NCBI GenBank assembly: GCA_021234155.1
Contig: JAJEKV010000071.1
Location: forward strand, 4,958,483-5,022,482
Reading direction: 5' to 3'
Length of the DNA stretch: 64,000 bases
DNA from: Isoetes taiwanensis
Lineage: Eukaryota; Streptophyta; Lycopodiopsida; Isoetales; Isoetaceae
Shown: piece after piece, positions 7,976 to 58,859 of the stretch
Position numbering within the stretch: position 1 is the stretch's first letter
Layout of the letters: each line of letters opens with the position of its first letter
Position numbers and translations under genes: made by a program
Notes under the pieces: generated by a model
Database searches by the model: none
What the model was told of the DNA's origin: nothing
What the model saw: the letters and a program-made list of their open reading frames with translations, nothing else

Positions 7976-8905
7976 CTTTTATCGTATCACTAAACTTGTC
8001 ACATGAAGCACACTTAAATACTAATACTAAAATTATGTATGCTTACAACTTTCTATAATCCATGAAAACAAAAGCACAATAATTTTTCACATTCAAAATT
8101 AGATATATTTACAACATTCTTTAATTGTATTGGTACCATGGAAGAAAAAACATACTAGTATATCTAAACCAAACATAGTTTTATTGATAATTAAGCACAA
8201 TAAAATATCATAATAACTAGGCACTTAAAATTACGAAGATGACTAATCACTGTACAATATCATACCAATTACGCACATAAAATTACAATGTCAATAAACA
8301 AAGGATAATAGATGTGATCAAATACTATTCCGATAAACTTGATACATTAAGTAGTAGCACACATCATACATTTAAGTTGTCATAAAAAACTAACTATAAA
8401 TTATCATCTTTAAGTACCATGTGAAGAAACAATATTTGTTTGTCACGTTGTGAAATTGCATCATTGAACTGTATTGTATAACTAGATATGGTTTGTAAAC
8501 TTTTTGGCCCACATACCAGTATTGATTTTAAGAGTTGGTTTTCATTAAGTAATCATTAGAAAAAAATCATACTGATTCAATTTTGGGGGCCTTGTGCAAC
8601 AATTTGCCTTTTTTCCTATAATCTTAAAATTCAAATTAGTAACGGGTAAAAGCACGCTGTGGTGTATCAAAAACGTGCATTTTGACGCCACATTTTGGCA
8701 CCACCTTTGTGGTAGAATCGGGTGGTGCATACCGAAGCGGAGATTGCGGGAGTGCGAATTAATGAGCGTCGGTTATTTTGAATTTTATGCCACGTCGTTG
8801 TCCACCTTTTTGAATTAAGAAAGAATCACCTCTTCCTCTGTTTTTTTGCCGCTTCTTGCCGATTGAACCCTAATGGAGTCGAATTGAACGCCCACCGGTT
8901 ACACG

Positions 8906-10314
8906 ATGAAATCTCTCCTCAAACAAGAGATTGTGCCCTACGAAGATCTAAAGAAGCTTTGGGGTGACAGAGTTCCAAATAAATCTGGCTACAGGTATTT
9001 TCCCCCAAATGTTTTGTTCAAACTGAAAAATTAAGGCATATGTTTTCTTGTACAAAGTTGAAGAATCGAGCAATGAACAATACAAAGAGTTCATGCAAAT
9101 TTACAAAAGAACGAGGAAGCCACATACATGGGGTGGAATGGCTCCCTGGAACACAGGCGTTGGCTTATTATCGCATATAAAGGGGAGGCTGTTAATTGGA
9201 AGAGCTTCTGGATTATTGTAAAACTCAGATGAGAAAGCCGAGGCCAGTTCTTCTAGACCCAAGAGAAAGCATAGGCAAATCCAACCTGACGAGGAGGAAA
9301 ATAGTAAAAGTGACAGGGATGATGAAGATGATAGGGAAATAACCAAATCAGGTTCCTCTAGACCACACATTCAATCTGAACTCACAATCAAAACAGAAAA
9401 AGCGAGCAATGTTCGAGACCAAAACATGTCATTAATGCGTTCAATTATTAGTTGTCTTACAAAGAAAAAAATCTCAAGCTTGATCTAGATTGTTTCTATC
9501 AACACGAAAAAGGTAACATCAAATCCACTTCAAGAATCAGGTATGTCTACTAGCATTTTGCATCATGTTGGTCGTGTTGTCATGTTGTGTCTCTATGATG
9601 CTAATGGATGCGAACGATAGATGAGGTATGTGTGGTGGTGGTGAGTTGTTGGCATCCACCATGTCCCACACCACACCCCATGATCTCCCACCACTACACT
9701 CTACCATCTCCCACCGCCCACACTCCCACACCACACACCACCACCACACTCCACCACCACCACCACACTCCACCACCACCACACCACAGACTCCACCATG
9801 TCCCACACCACCTCCACCACCACCACACACCCCATCACCACCACCACCACACCTCACCACCACCACACACACCACCACCACCACCACACCCCACACTCCA
9901 CCACCACCCCATCACCACACCCACCATGTCCCACACCACACACCACCACCACCCACCACCACCACCACCACCACCACAGCGTGTTGTGTGGTGTGTACTG
10001 TGCAGCGTATGTTGTGTGGTGTGTGGTATGTGGTGGTGTGTAGAGACTACCTTGTGTTGTGTGGTGTGTGATTGTGGTTTTCCATCGCGACGCGGGTTTA
10101 CTATGTTGGGAGGTGACATATACGTAGTGTTTTGTTTTGCGCACTATGGCGGACTTGTGAAGGAATGGTTGGTTGAAACATCAGCTAGGTTTGATAGATG
10201 CAAGCAACGATTGCAAGCAAACGAGGATAGGAAAAATGATATCAAAAGAAAGATTGAGTTGATGGAGCATAAAGCATCGAAATTAGAGCTGATTTGCACG
10301 GATGGCAATCAATC
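8906..10314 (+). pseudogene. 5' part of the plus-strand transposon gene, unidentified
   Basis: A start codon at 8,906 opens a short exon ending at a GT donor at 8,995. It encodes a charged peptide containing EIVPYEDLKKLWGDRVPNK. A following stretch (about 9,058-9,480) encodes EQYKEFMQIYKRTRKP and a very acidic, serine-rich linker (DDEDDREITKSGSS) with one in-frame stop. After the CAC-rich array, 10,147-10,314 encodes a predicted coiled coil (EWLVETSARFDRCKQRLQ, then NDIKRKIELMEHKASKLE). I do not recognise the family. By order and strand it is probably the amino-terminal part of the gene whose later exons encode the phosphatase and protease domains. Confidence 0.4.
9640..9980. repeat. CAC/CCACCA-rich low-complexity array
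   Basis: About 340 bases of interspersed CAC and CCACCA units on the plus strand, followed at 9,980-10,060 by a GTG-rich stretch that could fold back on it. Long histidine/threonine/proline-rich open frames here follow from base composition and are not evidence of a gene. A mirror-image array lies at 19,376-19,970. Confidence 0.9.
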
Positions 10315-10844
10315 ATGACAACAAACCGAAAGCCAGAGGGTGTTCGGGTTGTGTTTAACTAAAGGATGAAGAGCTAAATGGTACGATGTTGCCCGGGGCT
10401 GAAATGATTAAATAAGGAATTAACAAAACTGAAATTGAGCTAAAGGCATGTGAAGACTTACTGCAAGATTTGAGATTTTTTTCGGCGTAGTGGTCATGAC
10501 ACTCCTTTAGATCCCTGCACTTCCAATGCTTCCGAGGCAGAAGAAGAGGGTGATGAAGGTTGTCCATTTTGTGGACGTTGTCCGAAATGGGAGGGTAAAA
10601 TGTTGCCGGTTGTGATAGCAGAATATCGCAAATACCGATATCACATTCCATGTCTATCACACCATTTGAGGTAAATATTATCATCTCTAACCCTCGTCTA
10701 AAGACTCTATTGATTTTGAATTTGTTTTTGCGTTACTCTAGAACCCTGCAGCCCGGCCAGGCCACATTATGATCCCGGAGACATGGCTTTTGGCTTTTTG
10801 GTGTTCGAAAGTGGTACCACAAGAACCAATAGACACAAGTAAGT

Positions 10845-10910
10845 CCAAAGAGGGGGTGAAAGCAAGGTTTGGGAAGTCTCGATGCTTGTACCGTGGGTCT
10901 CTTTCATCTG
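10845..10910 (+). repeat. half copy of the foldback repeat found at 37.7-39.1 kb
   Basis: The stretch AAAGCAAGGTTTGGGAAGTC followed by TCGATGCTTG is nearly identical to 37,957-37,987, the right arm of a foldback repeat. Only one arm is present here. It shows that the repeat family is dispersed in different elements. Confidence 0.75.
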
Positions 10911-11027
10911 GCTTAGTCTCTTCCATCCCGGCGGGCTTAGTCTCTTTTGCTTGTCTCTTTTGCAAACAATATAGATTCGCCGCAAAACAAGTGCCTTAAC
11001 TAATGTTTTTCGATGTTGTCACAGGTG

Positions 11028-11240
11028 TCTACCGACTTAGTGTTTGCAGAATTGCGTAAATTTGAGACCAAGGATATCCAACAGTTATCCACGCCTCGAT
11101 CAGTTATGAGACGCGCAAGATACCTCCTGGGGTTGTACCTAGAATTCACCCCATTTGATACTCAAGTCAATCCCAAACCGCCGACGGCATGGAGACTCCA
11201 AAACGAAATTTGGATAGTCAATCGAATGCGTCATTATCAA
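11028..11240 (+). pseudogene. exon-like block of the plus-strand transposon gene
   Basis: An open frame encodes TDLVFAELRKFETKDIQQLS and PRSVMRRARYLLGLYLEFTP, continuing to IWIVNRMRHYQ, where a strong donor CAA|GTAAGT occurs at 11,239-11,245. The family is not recognised. It lies between the coiled-coil segment and the phosphatase domain, in the same orientation. Confidence 0.4.
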
Positions 11241-11569
11241 GTAAGTACCGATGCCACATACATGATTTATTTTTTGTATTTTTCGTGGTCTTCCTCATTT
11301 CAATTATGTTGCGAGAGATAAATGCTACCGCAAATGGAAGCCATGACGAAAAAGATTCCTAGTGCATCTGATTTAGGGGGAAAATTAATTCCTTGAGATT
11401 CATTCTCAGCGGGGTCCTTCACCGAAAAAAGTTTTGGTCTTGAATATGAGCCAAATGCGGATGCGGTGATGAAGTTGACAAAGAAACCCCGGATCCCGGA
11501 CAAGATGCGGGCTCAATGAGTCCAATACAACCTCAACCAACAAAACCAAGAGGTTAACCTGAAATTCTC

Positions 11570-12180
11570 CTTGTTCGGATTTTAATGGGGTTTTAGGCAA
11601 GTTTTATGACTTGAAAGAGAGGATCCCCCATTGACCGAGCGCAGTGACCATCCGAAATTGAACCATCAAAAAGTGATTTCAGGCCCGGATTTCAGGAGTT
11701 CTTAGAATGGTGTTTTTCAAAATTTGAGATTGCATTGTGGTCAAAGCATGGCTAAGAGTAATGTTGACTTGTTGACGACGAAAGTTGCTGCAGGAATATA
11801 AGGGCGATTTTTTTTATTTGGAATCGGGATGACTGCACCAACACAAAATTAAAAGTGGTTAATAAGCCAATTTTCCTTAAGGATCTGTCCAAAGTGTACC
11901 AGAAATTTTGGAGATACCAGGTGACAAACACATTGTTGATAGATGACAAGAGATATAAGGGTTACGCCAACCAAACCGAACACAATGATATGTCCAAATA
12001 GTTTTGCTCCGACAAAGTTGGATTCAATTTCCTTTTGGAGCAACTCAAACCATGGTTTGGAGGGACTTCTGGTCGCTAAAGTGTGCCAGCTTATGTGAAG
12101 GAACATCAAATGTGGAACATGTGGGATTCAAGAGTCAGCAGAAAGCGCATGAAAATGCTCGATAAGTATTTTCATAAATG
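11570..12180 (+). pseudogene. FCP1/NLI-interacting-factor type HAD phosphatase domain
   Basis: Members of this family remove phosphate from phosphoserine, classically on the RNA polymerase II tail. Landmarks of the fold are all present in order. HAD motif I appears as SDFNGVLGKFYDL (aspartate codon at 11,578). Next comes RPGFQEFLEWCFSKFEIALW (from 11,681). Then FIWNRDDCTNTKLK and KPIFLKDLSKVYQKF are followed by the acidic motif NTLLIDDKRYKGYANQ, ending near 12,000. The first two motifs are in different frames and stops intervene, so this copy is broken. Motif I has the DxNGVL form seen in plant NLI-type proteins. It lies directly upstream of the Ulp1 domain on the same strand. Whether both were once one polypeptide is inference. 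Confidence 0.72.
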
Positions 12181-12286
12181 AATCTTGTAAAAACTCTTTG
12201 AAAGTCAATATAAGTAAAAGAATTTCTATGATATGTGTTGTACTTTTCAATTTAAAATATTTGAATGGATTGTGAGCAAATGTTCG

Positions 12287-12803
12287 TGTGTGTTTAGAAC
12301 TAGAGATGATAGAGCTTCGGCAGTCCCACGACTATCTAAAAGCCAAATACACATCGAAAGTGGTGCTGAGTGGAACTGAAACCGTCGTGATTAACTCCAC
12401 CGACATCAAAATTTTGGAAGTCGACACGCAGTGGTTCAATGATCAATTGATCCTCCTCTTCTCAAGGTGATACTTTCATCTGATTTGTGATCATCAGGAT
12501 TGTGCCAGATGATATGCATATGTTTGCAGATACATGGAATACTACTTGATTCTCCAAGGAATGAGCCATCCCTTTCATTTCTTTGACCCTCTCTTTCACT
12601 CGACATTGTCCAAGGACACAAATAGTTACAAAACAATAAGGAAACATGTGAATCTGGATAAGTGCCAGTACATGTTTTTGCCTGCTTGTGATGGACATCA
12701 CTGGACCTGTTTTCTGATTGTAAGCCACACGTGTCTCGCACAGAGATATAAACCAGGGATATATCACTTTGATAGCTCGGGCTTGCATGGCAGAAGCAGA
12801 CAT
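12287..12803 (+). pseudogene. Ulp1/SENP-type cysteine protease (C48), 5' part
   Basis: C48 proteases process SUMO-like modifiers and recur in plant transposons. The first exon encodes VDTQWFNDQLILLFSR, the usual W-x-N-D entry motif of the fold. A canonical 61-base intron (about 12,469-12,530, GT...TTTGCAG) restores the frame into a second exon encoding HHWTCFLIVS with the catalytic histidine (codon 12,699-12,701) and IYHFDSSGLHG with the catalytic aspartate (codon 12,771-12,773). Reading then stops being homologous exactly at CAT 12,801-12,803, where a CACTA-like element has inserted. The rest of the gene continues at 16,693. No stop or frameshift is seen within this half. Confidence 0.82.
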
Positions 12804-14499
12804 CACAAGGAGCCTAAAAATAAACTATTATATTTAACCAATGTCGAATCATCCACAAACCATGATATATGTGGTTTTTTATGCATGATTTTATTGTGTA
12901 GAAGAAAACCATGTATCATAGTGGTTTGTTGGAATCAATAGTGGTTATGAATGTTGGTTTTAAGTGTGATAGTGGTTTGTTAAAACTAGTTATGGTTTAT
13001 GAGATTGTTTCATGCATATTATAGTAGTTTATTAAAACTATTAATAGTTTGATAAAACCACTCTATGACTTATAATATATGGTCTAAAAACTAGCTTTAT
13101 TATACCCAATATTACTCAATGTATTGAATATTGAATCGAATAGAAAGGGTTTTATTGTCATATTATCCCTGCAGGTTCTATGACTATATATGCATAGTGT
13201 GAGCAAAGGTTCAAAGACCAATAATGATAGTAGAACCTCAATATCCTGGTATCTATCTTGGGGTCCAGTTCATTACTTTAGAATACAACTTGGCGCCCAC
13301 CTTGGTGCCCCTAGCAGTGACCGAGCCACACTATCCTGATGCCCAAATTAGTTGCCCAAAATAAGTGAACATTGCTGGTAGATCTACACAGTCCTGGTAC
13401 CTAATAGTACTGTCCAATGCCAGAGAGCTGCATTGCCCTGGAATTTTTGGACTTTAGGTAATATATGGATGACATAGAAACTTTGATGACTAAGATAATG
13501 ATGACATCAACTTGGTGTTGTGTCATGATGATGTAGGTGTCTCCTTGTAATGGCAAAGCCGCACGATCCTGAGACCCATATAAAATGCCGAATGGTTTGT
13601 TTTCTGGTGTTCGAGCCGGGATAGAACCACACTAATCTAGACCAGGATTAAAAAAAACTCACCCCAAAGGATTTTTGAGGACATCTTGCTTTGAGGATGC
13701 CAAAGTTGTCTTTGCATGTTGTAAACTAGAAGAACGGAATTGCTAATGAAGAAGGATGTCCGATCAATGCCAAAATTGTCGCGAATTGTAAATTAGAATA
13801 TGATATTTCCAACAAAACCAAACACTTTGTTGTAGTTGACAGGTTATGCTCATTTAATTTGTTTTCTAAAACACTTATAGAGGAGAATAAGATTTGTCCA
13901 ATGAACTGGCATAAGATTTGTCCAATGAACTGGCCAGATTTGCACTTGGGCAAGTTTCGATTGGCGATTCGCAGGAACGTTTTCTTAGAATAGAATAGAA
14001 TGCTAAAGAATGAGCAATAGGTTTGTTTTGTGTTTAGAATGGTAGACGTCCAAATATACTCGAAATAGTTCATTGGACCGCCAGTTGTAGTGGCTGCATA
14101 ACTGGCATTATTTTTGTTGTTGTCGAATTTTCATTCTGTCGGGCAATAGTGCCCAGTAGAATAGAATTTCAATGGCAGTAAGAAGAATGCACAACTAAAA
14201 ATAGCTAAAAATCAAAGGTTAGTTTTTCCACGATTTCCATATTAGAAGTCTTTGGAGTAGAAAATGCGGGGAATTCCAAAAAAAATTATGCTACCGTACG
14301 TCATTTTGAAACCTACCGTTACTGAAAATCCGGCCTTAGTGAAAATCTGGCCTTAGGTAAATACATCTAGATTACCATTCAAACAATTACATGCTTAAAG
14401 TGTGAAACAACATTAACTAGTCGAAGATCTAATATCAAGGTCATGAACGGCTATGATTGTGATCTGCCCCTTGAAATTTTATTGGTCCAATGTGGCAAA

Positions 14500-14760
14500 A
14501 AAAAAGGGGGAAGCCATACACTTATTTTTGCTAGGGTTTTCGCTGCCGCGTCCTCCTTCAGAGCGAGCAAAACTGGATCGATCCATTCCAGTGGCGCCTC
14601 CTTCAAGACAGGTTTTCGCTGCCGCCTTCAGCCAAATATGGATTTTATTGCGCCTCAACCCAGAGATGGGTTATTCTATTTCACTGTTCTCCATTGTTTT
14701 TCTATTCCTTTCAGGTATCGCAGCTACAGAGACCGCGGCGAGAACTTGAAAAATTTTGGG
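14500..14760 (+). other. GC-richer captured-looking segment upstream of the ARF exon
   Basis: This stretch has higher GC than its surroundings and contains overlapping open frames of about 100 codons, including QPNMDFIAPQPRDG. It resembles leader sequence of a host gene, possibly from the same capture as the ARF exon. No family motif was identified. Confidence 0.3.
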
Positions 14761-14812
14761 CACGATATTTTCTTAAGCATTGCTCTAACCATTTGAAAGT
14801 TTTGGCTTCCAG

Positions 14813-14903
14813 GCCAGCCACGCCGTCATCTTCTCACGACAGGGTGGAGCGTGTTTGTTAGTGCCAAGAGGCTACAAGCTGGTGATTCTGTCTTATTTAT
14901 CAG
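14813..14903 (+). pseudogene. auxin response factor B3-domain exon, captured
   Basis: The exon encodes [20 protein letters not shown] and then [10 protein letters not shown], which is the conserved second half of the ARF B3 DNA-binding domain. It starts just after an AG acceptor (14,811-14,812) and ends at a GT donor (14,904), matching the usual ARF exon boundary after VLFIR. The reading frame is intact across the exon. No neighbouring ARF exon was recognised on either side, so this is an isolated captured exon inside the nested CACTA-like element. Confidence 0.85.
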
Positions 14904-16692
14904 GTTTTCATCTGCTTCATTCTTCTCTGTTTCGTAGTTTTAAGGTGTTGTCTTCTTTTTCTAAAATCCCCTTGCTACAGAAAGCATGTTTCGCTTCCTC
15001 CTTATTTTATTTTCTTCTTTTGCTTCGTTTCACAGCTCGTTCTTTTTCTTTTATTGAACTGAAATGAAATGATAGAATATAAGTGGATTAAAATATCCCT
15101 TTCCTGAAGTTGTGTTCTTCATTCATTTGGTTTGGGCACAACACAGGTCTTGAGGAAAGGAAAACTGCTTGCTTGGTTGTCGCAGTATGAAGATAATATC
15201 ATGCCTGAGATATCATCCTGATCTTTTTCATCTGTATTATTCCTTTCCATACTCGCATGACTCGTCTCATTGAGGGCTTCAACACTTTTACTTTTAAATT
15301 AAACTTTGATGCATGGATATCTCCATTAGGAGCTGACTATATCAAAAGAAGGCCAAAGGAAAATTGCATGTTGGCCCATCCTATCTAGGACATATTCTAT
15401 CCTGAATTGAACTAAATGCTTTATAGCCTTGGTTTTCAGCGTTTCTTAATTGCTTGCATTCAATCTAGAGTTGTTGCTGAGCATCAATAAGTTATCAAGA
15501 ACAATGCACTGCAATGACAAATTATCCATTATGCTATTAAATGGGTAAACGTGTTCATTCTCACTTGGCTTGCATCTTATTCATGTTTAACAGCAAGAGA
15601 TAATTTTGTCTCACTACTTGTTTGATTGGTTGTGCCTAATCAATATTTCAAAGCCTTCTGGACGTGTATTTGGGTTCGATTCCCAAAAGGCAAAGCTAAG
15701 AAAAACAACAATGAAAACAAATGTTTGGGAGAGGGCAGTATCATATGAATAAATAAATAAATAAAAGAAGAAAAAAAAAACGAAAAAAAATAATTATTCA
15801 TCACATGTCCATAATTTATTACGAATGTAATAATTTACTACGAATGTAATAATTATTCTTCGCATGCCATAATTCATTGTGAACGTTATTTATCCTGGAT
15901 AAAGATAAAAAGGTTGATGACATTACTTATGACAACTAGCAATCATCTATAATACTTATAACGTTTGCGATGACATTACTTGTTATAGATGGCAATCATC
16001 TCTAATAATGCCGGAGGTTACTTATCACGATGGTAATCATCTCTAATACTGGAGCTTACTTATCACGTTTGCATGAATCACGTAAAAAAATAAGAATTTA
16101 ATTTGTGGCATATACACTAAATATCAAATACATTGGGGAACAAAAAAACACTAATAATGTGACCCAGAAACTCATCAAAGTTTGTGAGTTGAAATGGCAA
16201 TGGTTTCCAACTTAAGTATGCCTCATTTTGTTCATTAAACCAACATCAATAAAGACAACAAATATTCACTTTCTTAATGCAAAAACTATTGGTAGTTAGT
16301 CGACGTTCTATGATAAAAAACTAGAGCATTTTATTGTAGGAAGCAAGGTTAGTTCATATCAGATAAGGTAGGTAATTTCATTACAAAAGCACTTTAAGTT
16401 ACACAATCATTTAAAGCGAAAATCATTAGTGGTTTCAGGCATACCTTACTTGTTTAAAACTGAGCAATAAAGTGCTATTACAAACCAAATAGATAAATTA
16501 TCATAAAGAACCATGCTGCTTAACTGCAGTAACAAACTAGAATGATAAGTCATATATAAGAATCACACCATGTAGCTAGTAGTGGTTATTCAACACATTA
16601 ACCCACTTAGTGACATCTCCTTTTTATAGTGGTTTCATGTAGAAACTAATGTGAAAAACTAATAGTGATTGTTTTTTGGGCGCCTTGTGCAT

Positions 16693-17129
16693 ATTGAGAG
16701 GTTAGTGCTTGCTCATTGCATTTTGCTGTTGTGGCACAATGACAACAAACTTTGAGTGCAGGTTCCTGGAATTGCTTGGACACAGTAATTTCAGCTTTAC
16801 AACCTCAGATGTTGTGAAAATTTCCAGAACGCCTCTTCAAACCGATGGTCATTCATGTGGCCCTGCCGTATGTTCGTTTATGCACAAATTTGTGAGGGGG
16901 TACTTAAAAGGAGTGAATATATTGTTGCCTGATCTAGTAAGTCAACTTAAATGTAAAGAGACAAACCAAACTTTGTTATTGACAAAGTGTGGTTAATCAA
17001 GCAGTCGTGGACATTCGGCACCGGGATCTAGTTGATGTTAGAGTGTTCATGCTTGAAGTTTTAAGATTAGAAGCAACAAAAGTCGGAACCGAGAGGAACA
17101 TATGTATTGGGAAGTATGTAGGTGCATGA
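16693..17129 (+). pseudogene. Ulp1/SENP-type cysteine protease (C48), 3' part
   Basis: After one copy of the CAT duplication is discounted, the reading frame of the 5' half continues as IERLVLAHCILLLWHNDNK. A frame change or small intron follows. The catalytic glutamine and cysteine then appear in TPLQTDGHSCGPAVCSFMHK (Gln codon 16,838-16,840, Cys codon 16,856-16,858). A last segment reads VVDIRHRDLVDVRVFMLEVL and ends at a stop at 17,127-17,129. All four C48 active-site positions (His, Asp, Gln, Cys) therefore survive across the two halves. The element-borne insertion, plus the frame change, makes the present copy non-functional. Confidence 0.82.
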
Positions 17130-17329
17130 GTCATCGTGTACTTAAATCATCAGATATCTTTCTTATGTACATAATTGTTATTGTAACCTCGATTCATTTC
17201 AATGAAAATTCATATTCAATTCATCTCACAAACAAAGGAATCAAGTGTTTTAAGAATTCAAATCTTCAAAAGAAATCAAAACAAACTCATTTTCACAAAA
17301 TTGAAGCACAAAACTTCACATGAGTTCAG

Positions 17330-19250
17330 AAAACTCTGAGAATGGTTTTACATTTCATCATCATCGGAAAAGAACTTGGTAAATTCTCGTAAAATTTTCT
17401 CCTCATCTAAAGGATCTGACCTATATCTGATCTGCTTTTGACATTTAGTTGGTGGCATGTGAAGTCCGATTGCACAATGACCAGGTTGTGAATACTATGC
17501 CTAAAGCCTTTTCTTTGCAAAGATCATAGTCGACGGTTGATCTTGCGCCCTTCTTGTAATACATACCTTCTATGACACTATCACCGGTGAGATACCATGT
17601 TCCATTGAGTTGGAAGTCTTTCTCCACTATCCATTTTGGTTTTGTGCACATCGGAATCCAAAATTCGGAACCCTCATCATTCCCTTTTCGAGCAACAATG
17701 CAAAATTATCACCAACTCTAAGTGCCTCGCTAACATCGTGGGATTGAGGAGAACAAGGACTCTTTGGATTTACGGCCCTCAATGTCGAGATGCACATTGG
17801 AGGATGGTACAATAACTTGAAGTTTCTAATCATCAACGAGTGCTTGTTCACACAACCGTCCCACATGCCATCCAAGCGTAGTGCAGAAGCATGAAAGTTC
17901 CCTCGGTGTGCAACTACAATGGAGATTCAGATTGAATGCATGTACACAATGGATCCGCCTAGTGTCCAAAATCCTTTCTACGCACCCCATGCTTTCTTTC
18001 TATCTATATCCTCCACCTTGACTTCCCAAAAGAACCTTTTTATATTCTTCCTCGACTCGGTTTTGGATGTGTTCATCCCTTTCGGATGTTCCACAAGTAA
18101 ACATCTCTTCGGCAACTTCTACCACTTCATGAGCATTACCCAATTTTATCTGCTGTATTTTAATTGCGGTTGTCTTAACCATCTCTTCAACTCAAGAGCT
18201 TTGCCATCGTGTTCACCTTTCCCGTGGTTAGAACCAAAAAATTCCACATCATATAGACATCGATTTGTCGTTTGTGTACCTAGCCACAAAGTAAAATGGT
18301 CTAGAAGCCTTGAATTGAGATGTCGCACCATCCGAAAACACATAATGTCTCTTTGGAACCCTTCCTTTACGCTCCGGATATTTGTGGTGCTTCATGAATG
18401 TTGTTACCACGAACAAAGCATCGTGTTCCCTATCATCGATACATAGTAATGTGTTTCCTTGATAATCTCATCCGCCAATCGAGTCATACCGATATGTTAT
18501 TTGAACCAAAATGGTAACGGTTATTGACCCAAACAAGATCGATCGCTCCTCCTCTTGTTCCTTGAATGTATAGTTCTCTGCAAAATCCATTTGAGAGACA
18601 TGCATCGGGAGATTCTCCGAAGCTCCTTAAACTGCTTTTGCTCGCCATTGGTACCGAAATTATGCGATTGGAAAGATTTTTAGACGCTCTTTCGGTTTAT
18701 CGAAGCTCCTTGGGTTACGGTCTCATTGTCTTGATGAGTCGGTCTCCTACGAGAACTTCGAGACATTGTCTTTTTTCATAGTCAATGTACTCCCATTTCA
18801 CTTTCCTCCGCCACTTCCTTCCATGGGACAGTGTCAAAACTTCTTGATTCCACACTACCACAATTTCCAAGGATGCACGCCTTCTTGTGAAACTCATCTA
18901 ATTCACTCTTTGGACACAATATAGATCTCCACAAGCTTCCTCAGACTTGCAATTTTATCTTTGGTGCCCCTGCATTGACCAAGTTCATGTGATCTACAAA
19001 CATCGAGGTGCAAGTGCAATTCTTTGGATGTTTGGTTCTCATCCCATTGAGTCCATCCACTAGCATTTGCATCCTCACGTCTTTGAATGCAATAGCAACT
19101 ATTGAAGTCCTTCAATTTCACAACAAACCAGGGTTTTAGCTTCTCAAAAGCTCGAAGATCGAATCTTAATTTACGGATGTTGGTCCGAAACCTCTTGAAC
19201 AATAGCATCTGCATGAAATGAACACTAAACCTGTTAGGATGTATACCACA
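17330..19250 (-). pseudogene. DDE-like transposase (DFAENY...SDG...HGKGEHDG family), decayed
   Basis: Conserved blocks read in order on the minus strand. KPWFVVKLKDFNSCYCIQRR lies near 19,080-19,140. QMDFAENYTFKEQEE lies near 18,555-18,590 and holds the first candidate acidic residue. HDALFVVTTFMKHHKYP lies near 18,370-18,425. RHYVFSDGATSQFKASRPFY (18,287-18,346) holds a second acidic residue, and EFFGSNHGKGEHDGKALELK (18,187-18,246) a third. The spacing of the acids (about 82 and 38 residues) fits an RNase-H-fold DDE nuclease. I remember this motif set from unnamed hypothetical proteins in plants and animals but cannot attach a superfamily name. Frameshifts and stops separate the blocks. It converges with the Ulp1 gene and is the best candidate for the enzyme that moved the 13.4-kb element. 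Confidence 0.65.
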
Positions 19251-19375
19251 CCAAACCATGCACCATACCATGCCCCACACTCATCATATTCACCGAATCC
19301 AGCACCTTAATAGTCTTTGTGTACATTTACACACACACCACCTCACCCCACCACACACCATACCATTCACCACAC

Positions 19376-19970
19376 ACCATGTGGTGGTGGAGTGTGGTGG
19401 TGGTGGAGGTGGTGGGGTGGTGGTGGATTGTGGTGGTGGTGGGGTGTGGTGGTGGGGGGGGTGGTGGTGGTGGATTGTGGTGGTGGGGGGTGGTGGAGGG
19501 TGTGTGGTGGTGGTGGGGGTGGTGGTGGAGTGGTGGAGGGTGGTGGGGGGGGGTGGTGGGGGTGGTGGTGGTGGAGTGGGTGTGTGGTGTGGTGGTGGGG
19601 CGTGGTGGTGGGGGGTGGTCGTGGTGGAGTGGGTGTGTGGGTGTGGTGGTGGGGGTGGTGGTGTGTGTAGTGGGTGTGTGGTGCTATGATGTGGTGTGGT
19701 GGAGTGGTGGTGGTGGGGTGTGGTGGTAGGTGGTGGTGTGTGGTGGAGTGTGGTGGTGGTGGAGTGTGGTGGGGGTGTAGTGGTGGTGGTGTGGTGTGGT
19801 GTTGTGGATTGTGGTGTGATGTGGTGGTGGTGGAGTGTGGTGGTGGTGGTGGTGGAGGGGTGTGGCGTGGGATGTGGTGGGATGTGTGTGCATGTGGTGG
19901 TAATGTGGTGGTCGCAAAGATGTGGTGGTAGTCTATGGTGGTGGGATAGATGGGGTGTGGTGGGGTGAGG
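19376..19970. repeat. GTG/GGTGGT-rich low-complexity array
   Basis: Nearly 600 bases of GTG and GGTGGT units on the plus strand, including several runs of five to eight G. It is bordered by CAC-rich stretches at 19,320-19,380 and 19,985-20,100. In the sense direction of the minus-strand gene it reads CAC, just as the array at 9,640-9,980 reads CAC in the sense direction of the plus-strand gene. The overlapping long open frames are compositional. Confidence 0.9.
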
Positions 19971-20129
19971 GGGAAGATTCGCCAGATCATACATTAACAT
20001 GCACACACCCACATGACACCATGGACATAACGCAACCCACACCACACCACACCACAAACCACACCACACCACACCACACCACACCACACCATCACGACAC
20101 CACACATCACATCACATCACTTTTATCCT

Positions 20130-21600
20130 ATTTCGTCTGACATAAAAAATATGCCTAGCCTCCGCTCTCATAAACACTTTGAAATTGTTACACCCCGATA
20201 ATAATTACATTCCTCTTCTAATCATTAGAAAAGGATCGGGTCCTAAATCATGTTCCTACGCCCCGATTTTTGGCGCTTTCATTCCAATTCGCGCCAAATC
20301 AAGAAGTTCATTCCGCAACATGGTAGGAGGGATGTTCGGGAGATCACTATGGCTATTGTAGGGTGAGCGAGGAGGGCATTCAAGCACATGTTAAATAGGG
20401 CTCGTGGATAAATCTCAAGGTGGATATGCCTAAATCCACCTTCTTTGCTGATTTTGAATCCAACCTAAAGGCATACAATAGACCGGATGTCGGGCCTTCA
20501 ATGGCTATGCTTGGAGTCGATTGATGTGAAGAGAGCTCTTAGACAGAGTTCATGAGCTTATGTTACATGTTTGCCGCAAGGGCTTTGGTATATTTGTTCT
20601 CACTTGTCCGCTCGACTCGCAGAATGAATGATTTTTCTTGGCACTATTGCATTTACCACGGGGGATGCGGGAAGCACCGGCAAACCTCATCCTGTTAAAT
20701 TACGGGATGATTGCAGAAAGCTTAGATGCTTTAGTGCGTAAAACAATAATTTTGATGCACCAGTTCTCGAGCGATCATACCAAAGATTTCTCGTTGTTTA
20801 GAAATCATGCATGTAAATTTAGTTCGGGGTACGTAGCTTTCAATGGAAAGCCAAGTTTTGTAAAGCCAAATTTTGGAAGATCCTTTTTTTAATATATCAT
20901 ACTTTCCAACAGTTGTCTTTATTCAACAAAAATTTGTATCTCAGGATCAGTTAGTTATAGCTACACACAATTCACATGCCGTGATACAAGATAACAACAA
21001 TCGCATACAACACAATAACCACCACATGCACCACCATACTAAGCACCATAACTAAGAAAACATGATTAATGTAAATAAACTAACCCGTGATTCCTCCGGA
21101 TAGTGGGCGACATGTTCTTCTCTTACATTAACATCCTTTGTGTTAGGAGACACTCCGGTGTTCTCAATCCAAAATTTTGAATCTTTTCTATATGTTCATC
21201 TGAAATTGCATCGAATCTTTTTAGCCCTCTTGTAAGAAACCCATTTCCCACCATTGTAATCGATCTCTTCCCTATTTTTCTTTTGCCTTTTTTGAGGTTT
21301 CTTGGGTGAACACCTAATACCTTTCCAAGATCTCATTGGCTGATTTTGTCACTTGTTTCAGAATGCACGCGGCGTGGTACTGACATTGCAAAGGCAGCCT
21401 ATTCTTGGTCGCTAGGGATCATTGCTGGTAGAGAGTTTGATCCGCATGGAGTCCCGTGAGGCTCCTTATAACAATGCTCTTGGCTTCCAAATCCTTTAAT
21501 TCTTCACCTATGAATTTTTCCAATGTTTTATCCCTCAAAAATCAAGTAAATTTTCTTTCTTTCGTGCCATCCTCCATTCTTTTGGTCTGTTTATGGAAAA
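20130..21600. other. right arm of the 13.4-kb transposon, no gene recognised
   Basis: An 84-codon plus-strand open frame at 20,638-20,892 encodes HLPRGMREAPANLILLNYGM and a methionine-rich tail. Minus-strand frames are broken. I see no recognisable domain. An A-rich CAACA-type tract lies at 20,985-21,055. Confidence 0.3.
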
Positions 21601-21604
21601 GACG

Positions 21605-21820
21605 TTAGCAAACTAAGGACAATACGGCGTTCATCGCTTGCACTTCTTGATGAACCGGATCCTTACGCCACCCTACGCAAGCTCCAATTTTTCTTCTCTT
21701 CTTTTTTCCTCCGGGCGCCTTTTCTTCAACATTTCTTGTTCCTTGGTTCTTCTTCGTTTTCTCCGTGCGAAATGCCGGTTTTTGTGTACAGATTACCTCA
21801 TTAACATCCATATCCATAAT
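21605..21820 (-). pseudogene. basic amino-terminal exon, right-arm minus-strand transposon gene
   Basis: A minus-strand start near 21,818 opens MDMDVNEVICTQKPAF and leads into a lysine-rich, nuclear-localisation-like segment (EEKAPGGKKKRRKIG) and WRKDPVHQEVQAMN before a stop. It sits about 250 bases inside the right terminal repeat and points inward, so it may be the first exon of the transposase gene or a separate accessory gene. The family is not recognised. Confidence 0.35.
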
Positions 21821-22267
21821 GGATTGGAGCTCGCAGCAGGGAGGGAGCCAAAGAACAGGACGTAGGCAAAGAACAGGAAGGGGCCAAAGAATAGGAATTT
21901 GAATTTGAATTTTAGTTTTTGAAATTAGAATTTCCCCCACAGCTGAGCGGGACTCTATTCTTAAATATCGGCAGCTGAGCGGTGCCATAATTATACTTTC
22001 ATACCACAAAAGTGGTGGATGCAACGCCACATTTTGGGGGGACAGGGGGGACAGCCGAATTGGAACACCACAGCGTGCTTTTACCCTAACAACTGCCTTT
22101 TTTCCTATAATGTGACGACTAAGAGTTTCAATTAATTGTTGATGCATGTAGTTGTCCCTGAAATTTAGACAATGTAAATAACATCTCTTAGAACTTCTAA
22201 AATAGTGAATAGCAAGAAGTTCCTGAAATGTTTAGTGTTGCTATGTTAGACAATGTACATTAACAAT

Positions 22268-49223: not shown

Positions 49224-51293
49224 CTATCCGCTGAGATGCATAAGGGGAACATCGCATCTATCGAAATTACTACTTATTCCACTACTCTGCCATATAGATC
49301 CTCTAGATTGAGAAAGCACAACAGAATTCAGTTGGCGATCACCAAAAAACATTGTTGGTTTTGAATTGGGGAGATCTGGAAGAACAGCTTCAGAATTGAG
49401 TATCTGACAGCATTTTCTCATGCTAGGTCTCATATCTGCATCAGGGTGACTGCAAAGCAATCCTAAACATAAAACAATCCGCATTTCATCTTGATCATAC
49501 TCTGAGTTAAGCCTAACATCAGCAAGTCCAAGTAAATTACCCCTCAAATGAGCTTGCCAAACCCAGTCCCACAGAAAATCATACTCTTGGGCCTCATATG
49601 AAAAATTAAGAACAGATTTTCCACAAGCTATCTCTAGAAGAAGAATGCCAAAACTGTATATATCTGATTTCTCGTTTGCCCTGCCCATGTATGCCAATTC
49701 TGGTGCAATGTAACCCCAGGTGCCTGCCTGTGTCATGGTCTGTTGTGTTTTATTGTTCTCCATGAGTTTTGAGAGTCCAAAATCACCTAAGCGTGCTCCG
49801 AATTTACTATCTAGAAGGACATTTGCAGCTTTGATGTCCCTATGCACGATCCTTTGTTCCCAACCAGCATGCAAGAACAACAATCCCTCTGCAATGCCCT
49901 TTACAATCTCATATCTTTGACTCCATGACAACATTTTTTCTGATGAAAATAAATGTTGATCCAAACTCCCATTTGGCATGAAGTTATAAACCAGAATCAG
50001 CTTTTCCTGTTCATAGCACCAGCCTTTAAGGGCCACTAAATTTTTGTGCTTTAGACGACCTATTACAGAGAGCTCTGCTAGGAATTGGTTTAGTCCTTCT
50101 GCAGCCATGACCTTAACAGCCACCATGGATCCATCGCTTGGCAATATTCCTTTGTAAACGGTTCCATATCCTCCCTTTCCGAGCATCTCATTCTTGCTAA
50201 ACCGTTTGGTGGCGATACTCAGATCTGCAAAGCTATATCTTGGAAGAGGAATTTCCAATTCAGAGATTTGGGGCAAAGTCTCATGTCGCTTTTTTCTGGT
50301 TTTGGCCCTCTTGATGCAGATCAAACAGGTAATTAAGACACTGGTGAAGATGATAACAACAAATATGATGATGAGAATGACTGACAGGGTAACTTTTTTG
50401 GATGGAGATAGAGTATTATTTCTAGAATATGGAGATAAAGTATTATTTCTAGAATATGGAGATCTTAGAGTATTATTCTTAGATGAAGAGGAATATGGAG
50501 GTGGAGCAGACAGAGGATTTTCAAGGTGGGTAATATTGAAGCTCCAAGAGTAAATTATATGAAGTTCTGATGCAGTACCGGTTGAGGCAGACAACCCAAC
50601 GTGCAAGTAATCATCGTTACTAAAAACTGTTTGCAGATCTACATTCTGAGCAGTGACAATAGCTTCAGAAGGACGCAAATCACTCTCGTTGGTAATTCTT
50701 AATTCCAGAACTTGAGACTGTGCATCAAAGTCGATCCATGCTCGCTGAGTCCCACTCAAAAGGTTGGGGTAGCAGGCATACCTGAAAGAATTCATGTCAT
50801 CCAAATCGATGCCAACGTGAGAACAACTTCTGCTACATGCTGCTGGGCCCGAGGATGGACGTCCACACTCGATGTTAGAGTCTGTGTGGCTAGCATGATC
50901 GTCGTTAATGTAAGTGTCAAACTCCACTGCAATAAATCGGTTAGAGGAATTGCCCTCTATACCCAGCAGCGCCCCATATGGGGTTGATCTTGGATCAGCC
51001 TGGATGAAGAAAGCCATGCCATCCCCAGGACACTGAGAAGCCGATGCATCAATCTGGAAGGAGAAAAACGTAGAGAAGGATGCAACAGCAGTTGCGTTCT
51101 TGAATCTAAAAGACTCTGCGTAGTAAACCTTACCGTTATTCCTTGTACCGTTCTGATTTTTCACGCTATTGTTGGTAAGATCGGAATCAATGTGGATGCA
51201 GGCGTTGTCGTCGTTGGTGAAAGGATTCAAACTAAAATTTGCACAGGCCATGGTGAAGAAGAGGAGGAGAGAGATGATCCGGGAGAACGCCAT
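49224..51293 (-). CDS. L-type lectin receptor-like kinase
   Basis: A single-exon, 689-residue plasma-membrane receptor kinase. Residues 1-18 form a hydrophobic signal peptide. Residues 19-255 form a legume-lectin domain, with GDGMAFFIQAD (90-100), the metal-site strand VEFDTYIN (123-130) and HVGID (159-163). A Cys-containing insertion (about 140-158) sits before HVGID. A serine/asparagine-rich stalk (262-300) has three NNT glycosylation sites in a tandem repeat. A transmembrane helix spans about 301-327, followed by a basic stop-transfer. The kinase domain (about 365-635) keeps the glycine loop GKGGYGTVY (372-380), Lys394, Glu407, HRDIKAAN (484-491), DFG (504-506) and APE (530-532), so it should be an active RD kinase. 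Length and order match plant LecRKs, which sense extracellular ligands in stress and defence. No introns or lesions are seen; the ligand is unknown. Confidence 0.95.
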   Translation of the reverse strand: MAFSRIISLLLFFTMACANFSLNPFTNDDNACIHIDSDLTNNSVKNQNGTRNNGKVYYAESFRFKNATAVASFSTFFSFQIDASASQCPGDGMAFFIQADPRSTPYGALLGIEGNSSNRFIAVEFDTYINDDHASHTDSNIECGRPSSGPAACSRSCSHVGIDLDDMNSFRYACYPNLLSGTQRAWIDFDAQSQVLELRITNESDLRPSEAIVTAQNVDLQTVFSNDDYLHVGLSASTGTASELHIIYSWSFNITHLENPLSAPPPYSSSSKNNTLRSPYSRNNTLSPYSRNNTLSPSKKVTLSVILIIIFVVIIFTSVLITCLICIKRAKTRKKRHETLPQISELEIPLPRYSFADLSIATKRFSKNEMLGKGGYGTVYKGILPSDGSMVAVKVMAAEGLNQFLAELSVIGRLKHKNLVALKGWCYEQEKLILVYNFMPNGSLDQHLFSSEKMLSWSQRYEIVKGIAEGLLFLHAGWEQRIVHRDIKAANVLLDSKFGARLGDFGLSKLMENNKTQQTMTQAGTWGYIAPELAYMGRANEKSDIYSFGILLLEIACGKSVLNFSYEAQEYDFLWDWVWQAHLRGNLLGLADVRLNSEYDQDEMRIVLCLGLLCSHPDADMRPSMRKCCQILNSEAVLPDLPNSKPTMFFGDRQLNSVVLSQSRGSIWQSSGISSNFDRCDVPLMHLSG
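50404..50484. repeat. three 27-bp tandem units within the receptor gene
   Basis: GGAGATA(G/A)AGTATTATTTCT units, two near identical and one diverged, encode the repeated SRNNTLSPY peptide of the stalk. Each adds one N-glycosylation site without breaking the frame. Confidence 0.9.
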
Positions 51294-51640
51294 TGCCGAG
51301 TGAATTGCTTGCTAACCAGTGCCGTCGTTTAAGCATGAGCCCGTATCTCAGGCGGGTTTCGCACGAAGGAATCTGGAGGAATCTGGAGCCTGAGCCTGAA
51401 CCTGAGACCTGAGACCTGAATGCTCGGTCTGGAGGAAGGTTTCCGCGTTCCCATCGATCAGCAGACCTGAAGCAGACCTAAAGGTGTTTTTTTCAAATAA
51501 TAAGGATCATTCGGAAACAGGGGAGATGATTCCAGGGGGTCCCGCGACCGGCGGCAGCCGGGAGCGAGTCCTGGAATCAGCGACCCTGTTTCGTCCCCCC
51601 ACAATATGACAACCGGGGAGGATGCAAAATTTGATCCATT
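51294..51640 (-). promoter_or_regulatory. upstream region of the receptor kinase, no clear promoter elements
   Basis: The first 350 bases upstream of the start codon are GC-richer than the surroundings and include a short CCTGAG(A)CCTGA-type tandem stretch at 51,384-51,420. I do not see a convincing TATA box at a usual distance. Confidence 0.3.
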
Positions 51641-54799: not shown

Positions 54800-57700
54800 T
54801 GGCTTTGACTACGTCTAAAATGCCACTGCTTCAAAAATGCCACTGCTTCAAGATGCACATATTTATGCCCTCTTATAATACTCACCCTTGGCATGGAAGT
54901 TGTCATTCTTGCCAGAGTCAAGGGTCATGTTAATCTGGCTTTTAAGCCAAAATACATACAACTCTGATTTCATTAATTTATAGATGTGAGAATATGTACA
55001 ACGTTATTTAATTTTTGGAGGCATGGTGCATACGATCATTTGATTTCTATGTGAGTGTTAGTTAAGTTGATGTGTAAAGGATCATTATCATGTTAACTTC
55101 AAGAAATTTCCATGTTAAGCCAATAATTGAATAAATCTCAAACCCATAATTGGCCAACTGTGACTAACCCAACAGCCACAAATATAAAGAAACGTAACTA
55201 ACTAGCCAACGTAACAAAGATGTATATAAAATCTAACCTCATATGAACACGTGTAACATAACCAGAGAGAACACCTCATCACCTATCTCTTAGCATTCTG
55301 ATCAAAAGCCTCAACCAAACAAATAACTCGCAAAAGATGCTTATGTGGAGAGACCTCCCTAGCCTAGAGGCTAACATAACCAACAACATGTATATATTTA
55401 ATTCATGTGAACAATATCTATAGACAAATGACATCATGAAATGTAGATATAGGAGTTGGACGGACAAAGAAATGATTATGGCAAAATGATCAAAAACCGA
55501 ACACATGGCATCCCATGCATATTAATAACCCAACCCATGCACTTTCAGCATTTTCTCTTGAAAAAAGGCCGATCATAGCAAACCATGTGAGGAAAACAAT
55601 GCATCAGGATAATAAACCAAAATGAATCTAATGGTGCATACGAAGCCACATGGTGCAAGTCCTAGCACCTTATGTCGAATGAGCAAACATAATAGGATAA
55701 TGCGGGATCCGAGCACGAGAGACTACAACATCTAGTGTCAGCAAATGTTAATTCTAGGAAACCACCACAGTGAAATAACGAGAAACCATAACCAACTCAA
55801 TGACCATATGACGCATAGGATAATGCAGGATCTGAGCTAATGAGAGACTACAACATGTAGTGTCAGCAAATGTTAACTCTAGGAAACCACCACAGTGAGA
55901 TAACGAGAAACCATAACCAATTTGACAGCCACATGATGCAAGCCCTAACACAAGTCCTAAACGTTGAATAATGCAACATGCCGAGGTTCTGGGAAATGAT
56001 AAAACAGTAAAGTTCAATCAATTTATTCGATATAACCCTCAAAAATCTAAGAAATTCCAATTCTATGATGACAAGAAAAATGCTGATAAAAATGCATCTT
56101 TGATATCAAGTTTACAGATCTATATAATCCAATGCTATTATGGAAAAGGACAACAAATGCGTTTAATAAGAGAGTCTATGTGAACAACCAACAAATAAAA
56201 CATGACTAGGGAGATATAATGCATGTTTGCAAAGATCACGAAGAAACGAGAGTACTATTGGTTTTGGATATAAATGATGAATGAGATCCCGATTTCCATG
56301 AAAACAAAATATATAATCTAGCGCATGATTATGAAGATGATCAATGAGGATATCAAAACACAAACATGTAGTGGAAATACCGTTGTCTAGTTTATGCCAT
56401 ATAAACACAAAAGAAACTCAAGAAAAAAAGAAAAATTATTTTGCCATTGGAGGGAATCGAACTAACAATCACAAGTTGCAAACCATGAAAGCTAGCCACA
56501 AATCCGACAACAAATTCTTAGTAAAAGTAATCAAGTAAGAGATTTAAATGGGTTGTGATACCAGGACCCAGTATCCCCTAACAAAAACCTCTCAGGAAAT
56601 GGTGGCCGCCAAAGATGACGCTAATTGGGCATGTCGCCGGAGAAATGGATGGAGGTTTCACATAGCTAGACGAGAACTTGGAGGATACAAAAAACCTAGA
56701 CCAAACCGAGCATATCAGCTCAAAATTCAGAGAGCAATGGACGGGTCGTTTCACAATCCCTACAGTTAGCAAATCTAGTGGGAAGTCGAATTCTAGTACT
56801 CAAGAATGCTGGTTCCACTGTATAGAGCCAAAAAACCTCTTAGATCGAATTCAAAATGATTCATCACCGCAAATCTTTAAGAAACAGAAAAGCATGAATC
56901 GAGTACACATACTACTGATCAAGTACGACAAGAATCAAAAGAAAAAGCAAATTGACAACTACAAGAAGGAATATCTAGATAAGAACAAAAAACATTAATT
57001 AAAACAAACTACCACAATATGCTCTACCTTGTACAAGACTCTGCCTATGACTAGGAACGCATTTCTACCTTGTGCAAGACTCTGCCTAAAGAAAGCATCT
57101 TTAACAACAAACTAGGAATCCCAACATACTTAGAAGGACCAAACCATCTGAGAAATGGAAAAGTAAGAAGATAACAAAACTGATTTCAACCAGCTTGGCG
57201 ATGCCGGAGCAATTGGATAGGCTGGGTGCAGGTCAAGAAGGGCCTGCGATGGGAAAAAAAGAAGGCAAGAGAAAGGCAAAGGTAATCGCAGCCATGCTAT
57301 AGAAGGAAAGGAAAGGCTGAAAAAACAACAGAGAATGGGAGGCCAAAGAGCTGAGGCGACTGATAGCAAGGTCGATCTGCAATCAAGACCCGGAATGGGA
57401 CGGTTGACAGATCGCAGGATGCCCACAACGGACATGCAAGATCAAGAAACACATAGATAAGCAATCTAGGAAGGAGAAACGCAAAGATAAGAGGCAAGCA
57501 CAGACAGATTTATTAAGGAATCAGCTCATCAGGGCGGTACCATCGACCCATGAGGTGCAGGCACCACCCTAAGACCAATCCAATAGATGCATGACCAAGC
57601 AGTAGTACATGTGCTAGGAATTTGATGAAGTAGGAAACTCCTACTTCATCCTATGGCATAAAGCAAGAAGGGCAACCAAAAAGCATTATGCTATAAAAGA

Positions 57701-58850
57701 CGCACCTCTCAGCTACCAACTACAAACCTAACAAACAAGTCTAAGCAACATATCTTAACATGACCCACGCCAACTAAAGGCAACAAAACCCCAAGCAACA
57801 ATTTGGTCAACTATAAGTGTAACAAAAAACTCCAAGATATCCTAGGCGAAGTTGCATCCTCAACAACAAATTTCCAAGGCATCGAAGGTTCAAAGACTTC
57901 GCCTCGATTCCAGGGTTTTCTCCTCGCTTCCAAGGTCCAAAAACATCGTCAACAATAAAAATAGAAAATACTTCTCATCCATGAGTTGATATCCATAATG
58001 TCTCAACAATAACAAACCAATTGACCAACCAATACATCCACACAATAAGATATTAATTTTAAATTAAATGACCCATCAATATATCCATAAAATAAGATAT
58101 TAATTTTATAAGCTAAATCACTATTTTATCGTGGTTACTTTTACAGAAACCTATCAAAAAAGAAACTTGTACACAGACGCAGTCACCTCCCATGGATCCG
58201 AGCTGCTCAAAAATGGCGACCCACTCACTCGAAGCAATGTGAAAAACCTAGAGAATATGAAATGCATTGCCGCTCCCAAAAAATCGAGGTAAAAGGCCTG
58301 GAATCCAACCCAAATTTGTTCACCAGCAAAAAACATGATACCCCAACTCCAAAATCCACAAGCAATCAACAGCATCTCAAAATTAGTAATGAAAGGGAGG
58401 AAGGAACAAAGAAATTTATGAAACAAGGTGCAAACCTCAAAAGACAAACTGACCAGGGAAGTCGTCCATAGCCATCCATCTTCAAAACTGCATGACAAGC
58501 ATATCCGACACCAACACCACCTATAACGGCAATTTTTAGGTCGCAGATAAACACAAGCAATCAAGGCTGGGTCCCAATGCATATGGCAAAAGCTGAAGAT
58601 CATGACAGAACCAACAAGATATGCTGATGTTGGACTCCCAACTCCAGCCCATCCAAACCCAAGAAACCACCAAACGAGGAAGCGATTTAGGATTTTGGAA
58701 AAAATTGCTCAACAAAGGCTATGAATCCGCTAACAGTGAGGATTACAAATTGTGCCAGAAAAGCTTGTGCATTGATGTGGAATTAAGAGGGAGATGATTT
58801 AGTAATAAGTAGAAACTAAAGAAATTGCATAGAGAAGAAGGAGAAATCTA
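54800..58850. other. intergenic sequence, no gene recognised
   Basis: Open frames of 60-150 codons are scattered on both strands and show no recognisable motif. At 56,440-56,500 the minus strand has a B-box-like GTTCGATTCCCT preceded by TGGCTAGCTTTCATGG, a possible tRNA-like SINE remnant. Confidence 0.4.
55692..55925. repeat. two ~123-bp tandem units
   Basis: AGGATAATGCGGGATC at 55,692 recurs as AGGATAATGCAGGATC at 55,817. Both units continue with GAGACTACAACAT, GTGTCAGCAAATGTTAA and AGGAAACCACCACAGTGA. A partial third unit may begin near 55,930. Confidence 0.88.
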
Positions 58851-58859
58851 GCTAATGAG

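Follow-up and report, generated by a model that had tools for sequence, protein, structure and literature searches.

We analyzed a 64,000-nucleotide stretch of the Isoetes taiwanensis genome (the window) and found at positions 8644-22086 a transposon of 13,443 bp, bounded by 22-bp inverted ends and a TAAC target-site duplication. The element carries two convergent gene sets: a putative transposase on the minus strand, and on the plus strand a cargo region with RING-like, NIF (FCP1-like) and Ulp1 protease segments. The observations are well explained by a family of terminal inverted repeat (TIR) DNA transposons with a DDE/D-type transposase and a convergent cargo region, an arrangement seen again in divergent families within that genome. 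The transposase and its cargo appear, with good confidence, to be old functional partners.

Borders and copies of the element

A first-pass annotation, made from the letters of the window, had proposed an element at 8644..22088 with matching inverted ends and a shared TAAC at both borders. The ends, the duplication and the left border hold, while the right border moves to 22086. The terminal sequence GGGTAAAAGCACGCTGTGGT is exact at both ends, at 8644-8663(+) and 22067-22086(-), with 0 occurrences expected in 100 shuffles. The border features are as follows.

8640-8643: target-site duplication TAAC, left (single TAAC in the related empty site L053)
8644-8665 (+): left terminal inverted repeat, 22 bp (exact end match)
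22065-22086 (-): right terminal inverted repeat, 22 bp (exact end match)
22087-22090: target-site duplication TAAC, right (read next to the right end)

To follow the element through the host, we searched the genome assembly (G000; 1,658,258,908 bases in 1110 contigs), described in its publication as 1658.30 Mb in 204 scaffolds and 909 contigs (PMC8566536). With the left 307 bp as query there were 785 candidates, and the 40 scored all matched at 96-100%; a search with the right 297 bp brought up 525, its 40 scored candidates matching at 98-100%. The family thus consists of many copies with common ends in one plant genome. Ten copies were fetched with 20 kb each, and five of them had both ends, the other five showing no right end within the stretch. 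The five two-ended sister copies measure 9,587 to 9,934 bp and are flanked by the duplications ATCA, AGTC, GGTA, TTAG and ATCA. Five further end pairs, taken from the lists of left and right matches, are flanked by ATGC, AGTA, AAAA, TCAA and AGAT, the AAAA pair having the last base of its element end changed.

With the window included, all 11 copies checked at both ends carry a 4-bp duplication with no fixed target, and no duplication of any other length was found among them. A query of the joined window flanks further identified a related empty locus (C1041:9778640-9778824; 87% identity over 217 bp) with one TAAC. The proposed 4-bp duplication is therefore borne out, and the full-length sister copies align across the gene-bearing length. 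We regard the TIR transposon anatomy of 8644-22086 as nearly certain. The annotated length of 13.4 kb agrees with the measured one but is inflated: the window copy owes most of its extra length over its sisters to a 3,886-bp CACTA-like element within the Ulp1 gene.

Transposase and cargo genes

The two gene sets were correctly described as convergent and meet near 17.3 kb. The minus-strand gene and the reading frame opposite its intron are laid out as follows.

21085-21817 (-): transposase exon 1, boundaries predicted (reading frames, tblastn)
19209-21084 (-): transposase intron, predicted GT-AG, holding a GTG-rich minisatellite and ORF3
17348-19208 (-): transposase exon 2, boundaries predicted, with a Cys-rich region, an RNase H-like core and a C-terminal part (tblastn, natural open reading frames of relatives, fold)
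18585-18587, 18330-18332 and 18206-18208 (-): D residues of the transposase core (core motifs)
20240-20754 (+): open reading frame 3 (ORF3), on the strand opposite the transposase intron; uncharacterised protein, 193 aa long in sister copy C1056 (tblastn)

The DDE-like assignment had been based on MDFAENY, SDG and HGKGEHDG blocks. These occur in that order on the minus strand but not in one frame, as the first two share a frame with a stop between them and the third lies in a different frame. A sister-copy query placed the window core by tblastn (E 5e-65), and a query with the core as read from the copies gave 8135 candidates in the genome; the 150 scored have 60-94% identity, and many are stop-free. 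Ten natural frames from several subfamilies were aligned; compared with the first of them, the others are 47-62% identical along the exon and 58-76% within the core. D38, D122 and D163 are invariant in all ten aligned cores, as are Glu 161 and 168.

A predicted structure of the core, weak as a model, has the RNase H-like fold of TIR (DDE/D) DNA transposons, with elements in the order strand-strand-strand-helix-strand-helix-strand-helix. D38 falls in strand 1 and D122 just past strand 4; the next helix holds both D163 and E168. In a Foldseek comparison of this model with the PDB, only a poxvirus resolvase (E 1e-4) and Argonaute (E 8e-4) fell below E 0.001. Next came RuvC, RNase H and Mos1 (E 0.003 to 0.01) and, when terminases are counted, matches up to E 0.03; their TM-scores were low, and other ATPase-fold proteins such as hexokinase were also listed. 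A library of viral structures gave 17 fold matches with E <= 0.001, several of them named RNase H. On this model we take the gene as an RNase H-like DDE/D transposase, in agreement with the first-pass annotation.

Sequence searches with the transposase were largely negative. None of the ten relatives matched a Pfam transposase family, NCBIfam returned nothing useful for them, and PHROGs gave weak unnamed families alone (best E 0.0025, in 5 of the 10). Searches of the PDB by sequence gave unrelated weak matches only, and tblastn confirmed no relatives in collections of viral contigs and genome contigs. A separate Rfam scan gave 0 matches. ORF3 had no Pfam family at E<=1 and is recurrent in the genome (150 matches scored of 1103 candidates).

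The domains of the plus-strand cargo were placed in the window by tblastn with sister-copy queries.

9027-9413 (+): cargo N-domain (76%, E 3e-52), its first ATG predicted at ~8906
10112-10335 (+): coiled-coil-like segment, judged by eye (tblastn; no significant Pfam family)
10474-10647 (+): RING-like zinc-binding segment (tblastn)
11578-12127 (+): NIF/FCP1-like HAD domain with motif I DFNG (tblastn E 3e-61; PF03031 on a sister copy)
12166-12297 (+): predicted GT-AG intron whose removal would put NIF and Ulp1 in one frame (same boundaries in 6/6 copies)
12360-12803 (+): Ulp1 protease, first part, with His and Asp motifs (83%, E 1e-80)
12804-16689: nested CACTA-like element, 3,886 bp, with CACAAGG ends and a 3-bp duplication CAT, interrupting Ulp1; absent from the equivalent place in sister copy C1035
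16706-16954 (+): Ulp1 protease, second part, with Gln and the catalytic Cys motif LQTDGHSCG (99%, E 8e-53)

The plus strand had been annotated with an FCP1/NLI-type HAD phosphatase and a C48 protease. The NIF domain itself is well supported: sister copy C1056 has an intact 323-codon frame matching PF03031 at E 9.4e-15, above the Pfam cut-off, and two members of more divergent families, C1064 and C1030, match at E 5.8e-12 and, slightly below the cut-off, 5.6e-4. Active members of the NIF/FCP1 family have a motif I of the form DxDx. Here the motif is DFNG, in the window as well as in C1056, C1030 and C1076, so phosphatase activity is doubtful and the domain may be inactive as a phosphatase; the enzymatic part of the annotation calls for caution. 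The likeness to CTD small phosphatase 2 (PDB 2q5e) is collinear but weak (E 0.54), and the element differs from it in the DFNG motif. For the RING-like segment, a hand-joined piece of C1030 matched nine zinc-finger models, at least seven of them RING-named, at E 5e-5 to 0.08; no RING model was above the cut-off on this piece, the best having E 5e-5.

The C48 assignment is confirmed by a match of the C1035 pieces to Peptidase_C48 (PF02902; E 1e-5, above the Pfam cut-off) and by the HHW, HFD and SCG motifs. By itself the window piece falls below the cut-off (E 0.094). The Ulp1 part resembles SENP5 (PDB 9gnn; phmmer E 5.7e-4) across the WND, HW and D regions, with the difference that here Ulp1 lies in a transposon and is predicted to be linked with NIF and a RING-like segment.

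The cargo gene seems to unite the RING-like, NIF and Ulp1 parts, and NIF and Ulp1 are probably fused in one spliced protein. The alternative of two separate genes, one with the NIF/RING region and one with Ulp1, draws on the unspliced reading of C1056, in which the NIF frame ends in a stop and an ATG stands shortly before Ulp1, making two proteins possible. At the same place in all six copies, however, a stretch of 132-136 bp with 24-26% GC and GT-AG ends would, if spliced out, remove the stop and keep the frame, and we consider two genes rather unlikely.

Several further repeats lie in or beside the element.

9729-9978 (+): CAC-rich minisatellite (repeat scan)
19381-19880: GTG-rich minisatellite inside the transposase intron (repeat scan)

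The two minisatellites lie one in each half of the element and are mutually inverted. The left array of C1056 has the reverse orientation to that in the other five copies, as if the arrays had exchanged. Just outside the transposon, at ~8587-8598, we observed GGGGGCCTTGTG, an end similar to that of the nested CACTA-like element; the 97-bp flank that holds it is repeated in the genome.

Divergent families, selection and broken frames

To see how far the gene arrangement recurs, we counted co-located matches within 6 kb among the best 150 matches of each search (transposase, NIF and Ulp1), which makes the counts lower bounds. NIF was accompanied by Ulp1 in at least 65 of 150 NIF matches, 63 of them on the same strand and with a median offset of 812 bp. 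The transposase was accompanied by Ulp1 in at least 53 of 150 cases (52 on the opposite strand), by NIF in at least 50 of 150 (49 on the opposite strand) and by both in at least 33 of 150.

We then read three more divergent families, represented by C1064, C1030 and C1076, the C1064 stretch covering the NIF and Ulp1 parts. NIF was found in all three, at 54% (E 7e-56) in C1064, 41-43% (E 2e-32) in C1030 and 35-36% (E 9e-16) in C1076. C1030 also has the N-domain (E 1e-12) and the RING-like part, and C1076 the N-domain (E 8e-9), Ulp1 pieces (E 6e-6 and 1e-3) and a RING-like part (E 0.013). The C1030 element is 14,144 bp long and has its own inverted ends (GGTTTT...) of ~40 bp with small gaps, with CTAA on either side, one case of a 4-bp duplication. 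Its borders are supported by the matches to its ends, which start at base 1 of the 5' end in 40/40 rows and stop at base 200 of the 3' end in 38/40. Among its 5' end (G000:C1030:11767649) and copies, with 2222 candidates, the first 139 bp are 100% identical in most of the 40 scored rows, as would be expected if the family had many shorter derivatives that are non-autonomous. Two similar short proteins, L039:2888-3235(+) and L040:5094-5567(-), occur in two families in differing orientation; they share the pattern MARxKxTxR... ERLLEM ... DLHxEL and have no Pfam family.

Synonymous sites were saturated in most pairs. The ratio of nonsynonymous to synonymous change (dN/dS) was defined for the transposase in 4 of 15 pairs, at 0.08, 0.08, 0.12 and, for a near-identical pair, 0.84, and for NIF in 2 of 3 pairs, at 0.19 and 0.17. 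Saturated synonymous change combined with low ratios points to long-term selection on both. The pairing of cargo and transposase in distantly related families of one genome makes the cargo probably a part of the element's life rather than a chance passenger. NIF and Ulp1 genes also occur in plants as host genes, and plant transposons capture genes, so the two domains could be captured host genes carried without a role in some copies; the C1030 element without a detectable Ulp1 would fit this. Captured passengers are nevertheless quite improbable given the constant order and strand in most co-located matches, the same arrangement in families with saturated synonymous sites, the low NIF ratios and the DFNG motif common to three families.

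Several observations weigh against a transposon family with a DDE/D transposase and retained cargo. The five further end pairs vary in length, spanning ~9.7 to 19.7 kb by coordinates. The third catalytic residue could be D or E, as D163, E161 and E168 are all invariant, and the core model has a mean predicted local distance difference test (pLDDT) score of only 53.1 and a predicted TM-score (pTM) of 0.50, the whole-exon model reaching a mean pLDDT of 40.8; several fold matches have TM-scores of 0.3-0.4 and a large root-mean-square deviation. In the cargo, motif I of NIF is without its second Asp, tblastn did not find Ulp1 in C1030, and C1064 has only weak, broken Ulp1 pieces (tblastn E 0.05-0.17 and by eye). 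Finally, the frames of the window copy and of most sister copies read are broken.

Broken frames are what a long-dead family would show, its genes truly disrupted by mutation, and the commonest changes at the C and G of CWG sites are C>T (65 cells) and G>A (66 cells), as deamination gives. The differences among the six aligned copies are clustered, however, and form scrambles with indels at CAG, CTG, CCG, CGG and CG sites. In a deviation profile with satellite stretches masked (8528/9648 positions kept), the mean deviation was highest for CAG (0.199), CGC (0.197), CTG (0.194), GCG (0.182), CCG (0.177) and CGG (0.169) and lowest for AAT (0.019). Of the strongly deviating positions, 43% are no more than 2 bp from a CWG centre, versus 6% of the invariant ones, and pairwise substitution is 1.75% away from CHG/CG sites versus 10.8% near them. 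The middle base of CWG is also altered (T>C 69 and A>G 65 cells), for which deamination does not account.

The assembly is further described as built from nanopore R9.4.1 reads and polished by racon and pilon (PMC8566536), which counts against a dead family, as do the many stop-free transposase matches and a receptor kinase gene elsewhere in the window, which looks single-copy and keeps an intact 695-codon frame despite 80 CWG sites. We consider the death of the family improbable; many of the broken frames probably stem from nanopore miscalling of methylated cytosines, in repeats beyond the reach of short-read polishing. The literature searched contained no paper stating such miscalling for CHG sites. 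If the frames are miscalled, the family is both younger and less damaged than it appears. Clustered CHG/CG scrambles in repeat copies would also affect the annotation of other repeats in the assembly.

The receptor kinase gene, at 49224-51311 (-), is intronless and of the L-type lectin class (Pfam Lectin_legB and Pkinase). Elsewhere in the window, a strong AT-skew switch runs through 55000-63000, A-rich to 59 kb and then T-rich to 63 kb; a search for a large inverted repeat, suspected at 52-64 kb, found none.

Relation to named superfamilies and role of the cargo

The element had been taken as one representative of an unnamed superfamily. That it represents a larger group is supported by the divergent families in the same genome, but the absence of a name is not established, as Sola fits by description. 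Sola is described with a DDD triad, 4-bp duplications, sizes of 2-9 kb with some above 15 kb, and occurrence in the moss Physcomitrella, the superfamily being uncommon in flowering plants (PMC10741241). A bivalve study counts Sola1-3 among 17 DDE/D superfamilies (PMC10294476). The window family shares with Sola the 4-bp duplications, a DDD-compatible triad with D38, D122 and D163 invariant, the several-kilobase size and a host outside the flowering plants. The equally invariant Glu 161 and 168 speak against membership, as does the fact that the match, compared by description, concerns general features and not sequence. The cargo set is absent from the literature searched, which yielded nothing relevant on Sola in Isoetes and, within those papers, no transposon carrying NIF and Ulp1 together. 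By general features only, Sola is the best named candidate, and the chances that the family is a Sola member with new cargo appear evenly balanced.

We rejected Ginger, MULE, CACTA, piggyBac, Kolobok and PIF/Harbinger for the window element. Ginger1 is a cut-and-paste element with Ulp1 (PMC2836005); its ends are unlike those found here, and a Gypsy-integrase-like core is absent from the Pfam matches of the ten transposase relatives. Some MULE and CACTA elements, which are plant DNA transposons, carry a C48 protease, and Ginger1 elements make 4-bp duplications. MULE and CACTA differ from the window element in duplication length, ends and transposase, and we know of no NIF partner in either. MULE duplications are of 8-11 bp, against 4 bp here, and no MULE family appeared in the Pfam matches of the ten relatives; CACTA/CMC ends start with CAC, whereas those of the window element start with GGG. 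piggyBac and Kolobok duplicate TTAA and PIF/Harbinger a 3-bp TWA, while the duplications here are 4 bp and variable (TAAC, ATCA twice and the eight others given above). KDZ/Zisupton are DDE elements with Ulp1 reported in them but have 8-bp duplications.

In the mechanism that we propose, the transposase would bind the ends, excise the element and reinsert it with a 4-bp stagger, by cut-and-paste. The NIF and Ulp1 parts, with the RING-like segment, would form a single spliced protein acting on factors marked with SUMO or ubiquitin or phosphorylated, either the transposase or host silencing and repair proteins, and this action may help the expression or movement of the element. An anti-silencing or transposase-regulating role of the cargo is a tentative suggestion. 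Equally tentative is the broader idea of an unnamed or unrecognised eukaryotic DNA transposon superfamily that has long retained a RING-like/NIF/Ulp1 protein editing SUMO, ubiquitin or phosphate marks.

Through nanopore miscalls at methylated CHG and CG sites, young plant transposons can be mistaken for dead ones, a concern for transposon annotation in such assemblies. Ulp1 genes in transposons are already known and their role is unclear. A lineage that apparently retains Ulp1 together with phosphatase-like and RING-like domains, probably in one protein, offers a system for asking how transposons use SUMO enzymes.

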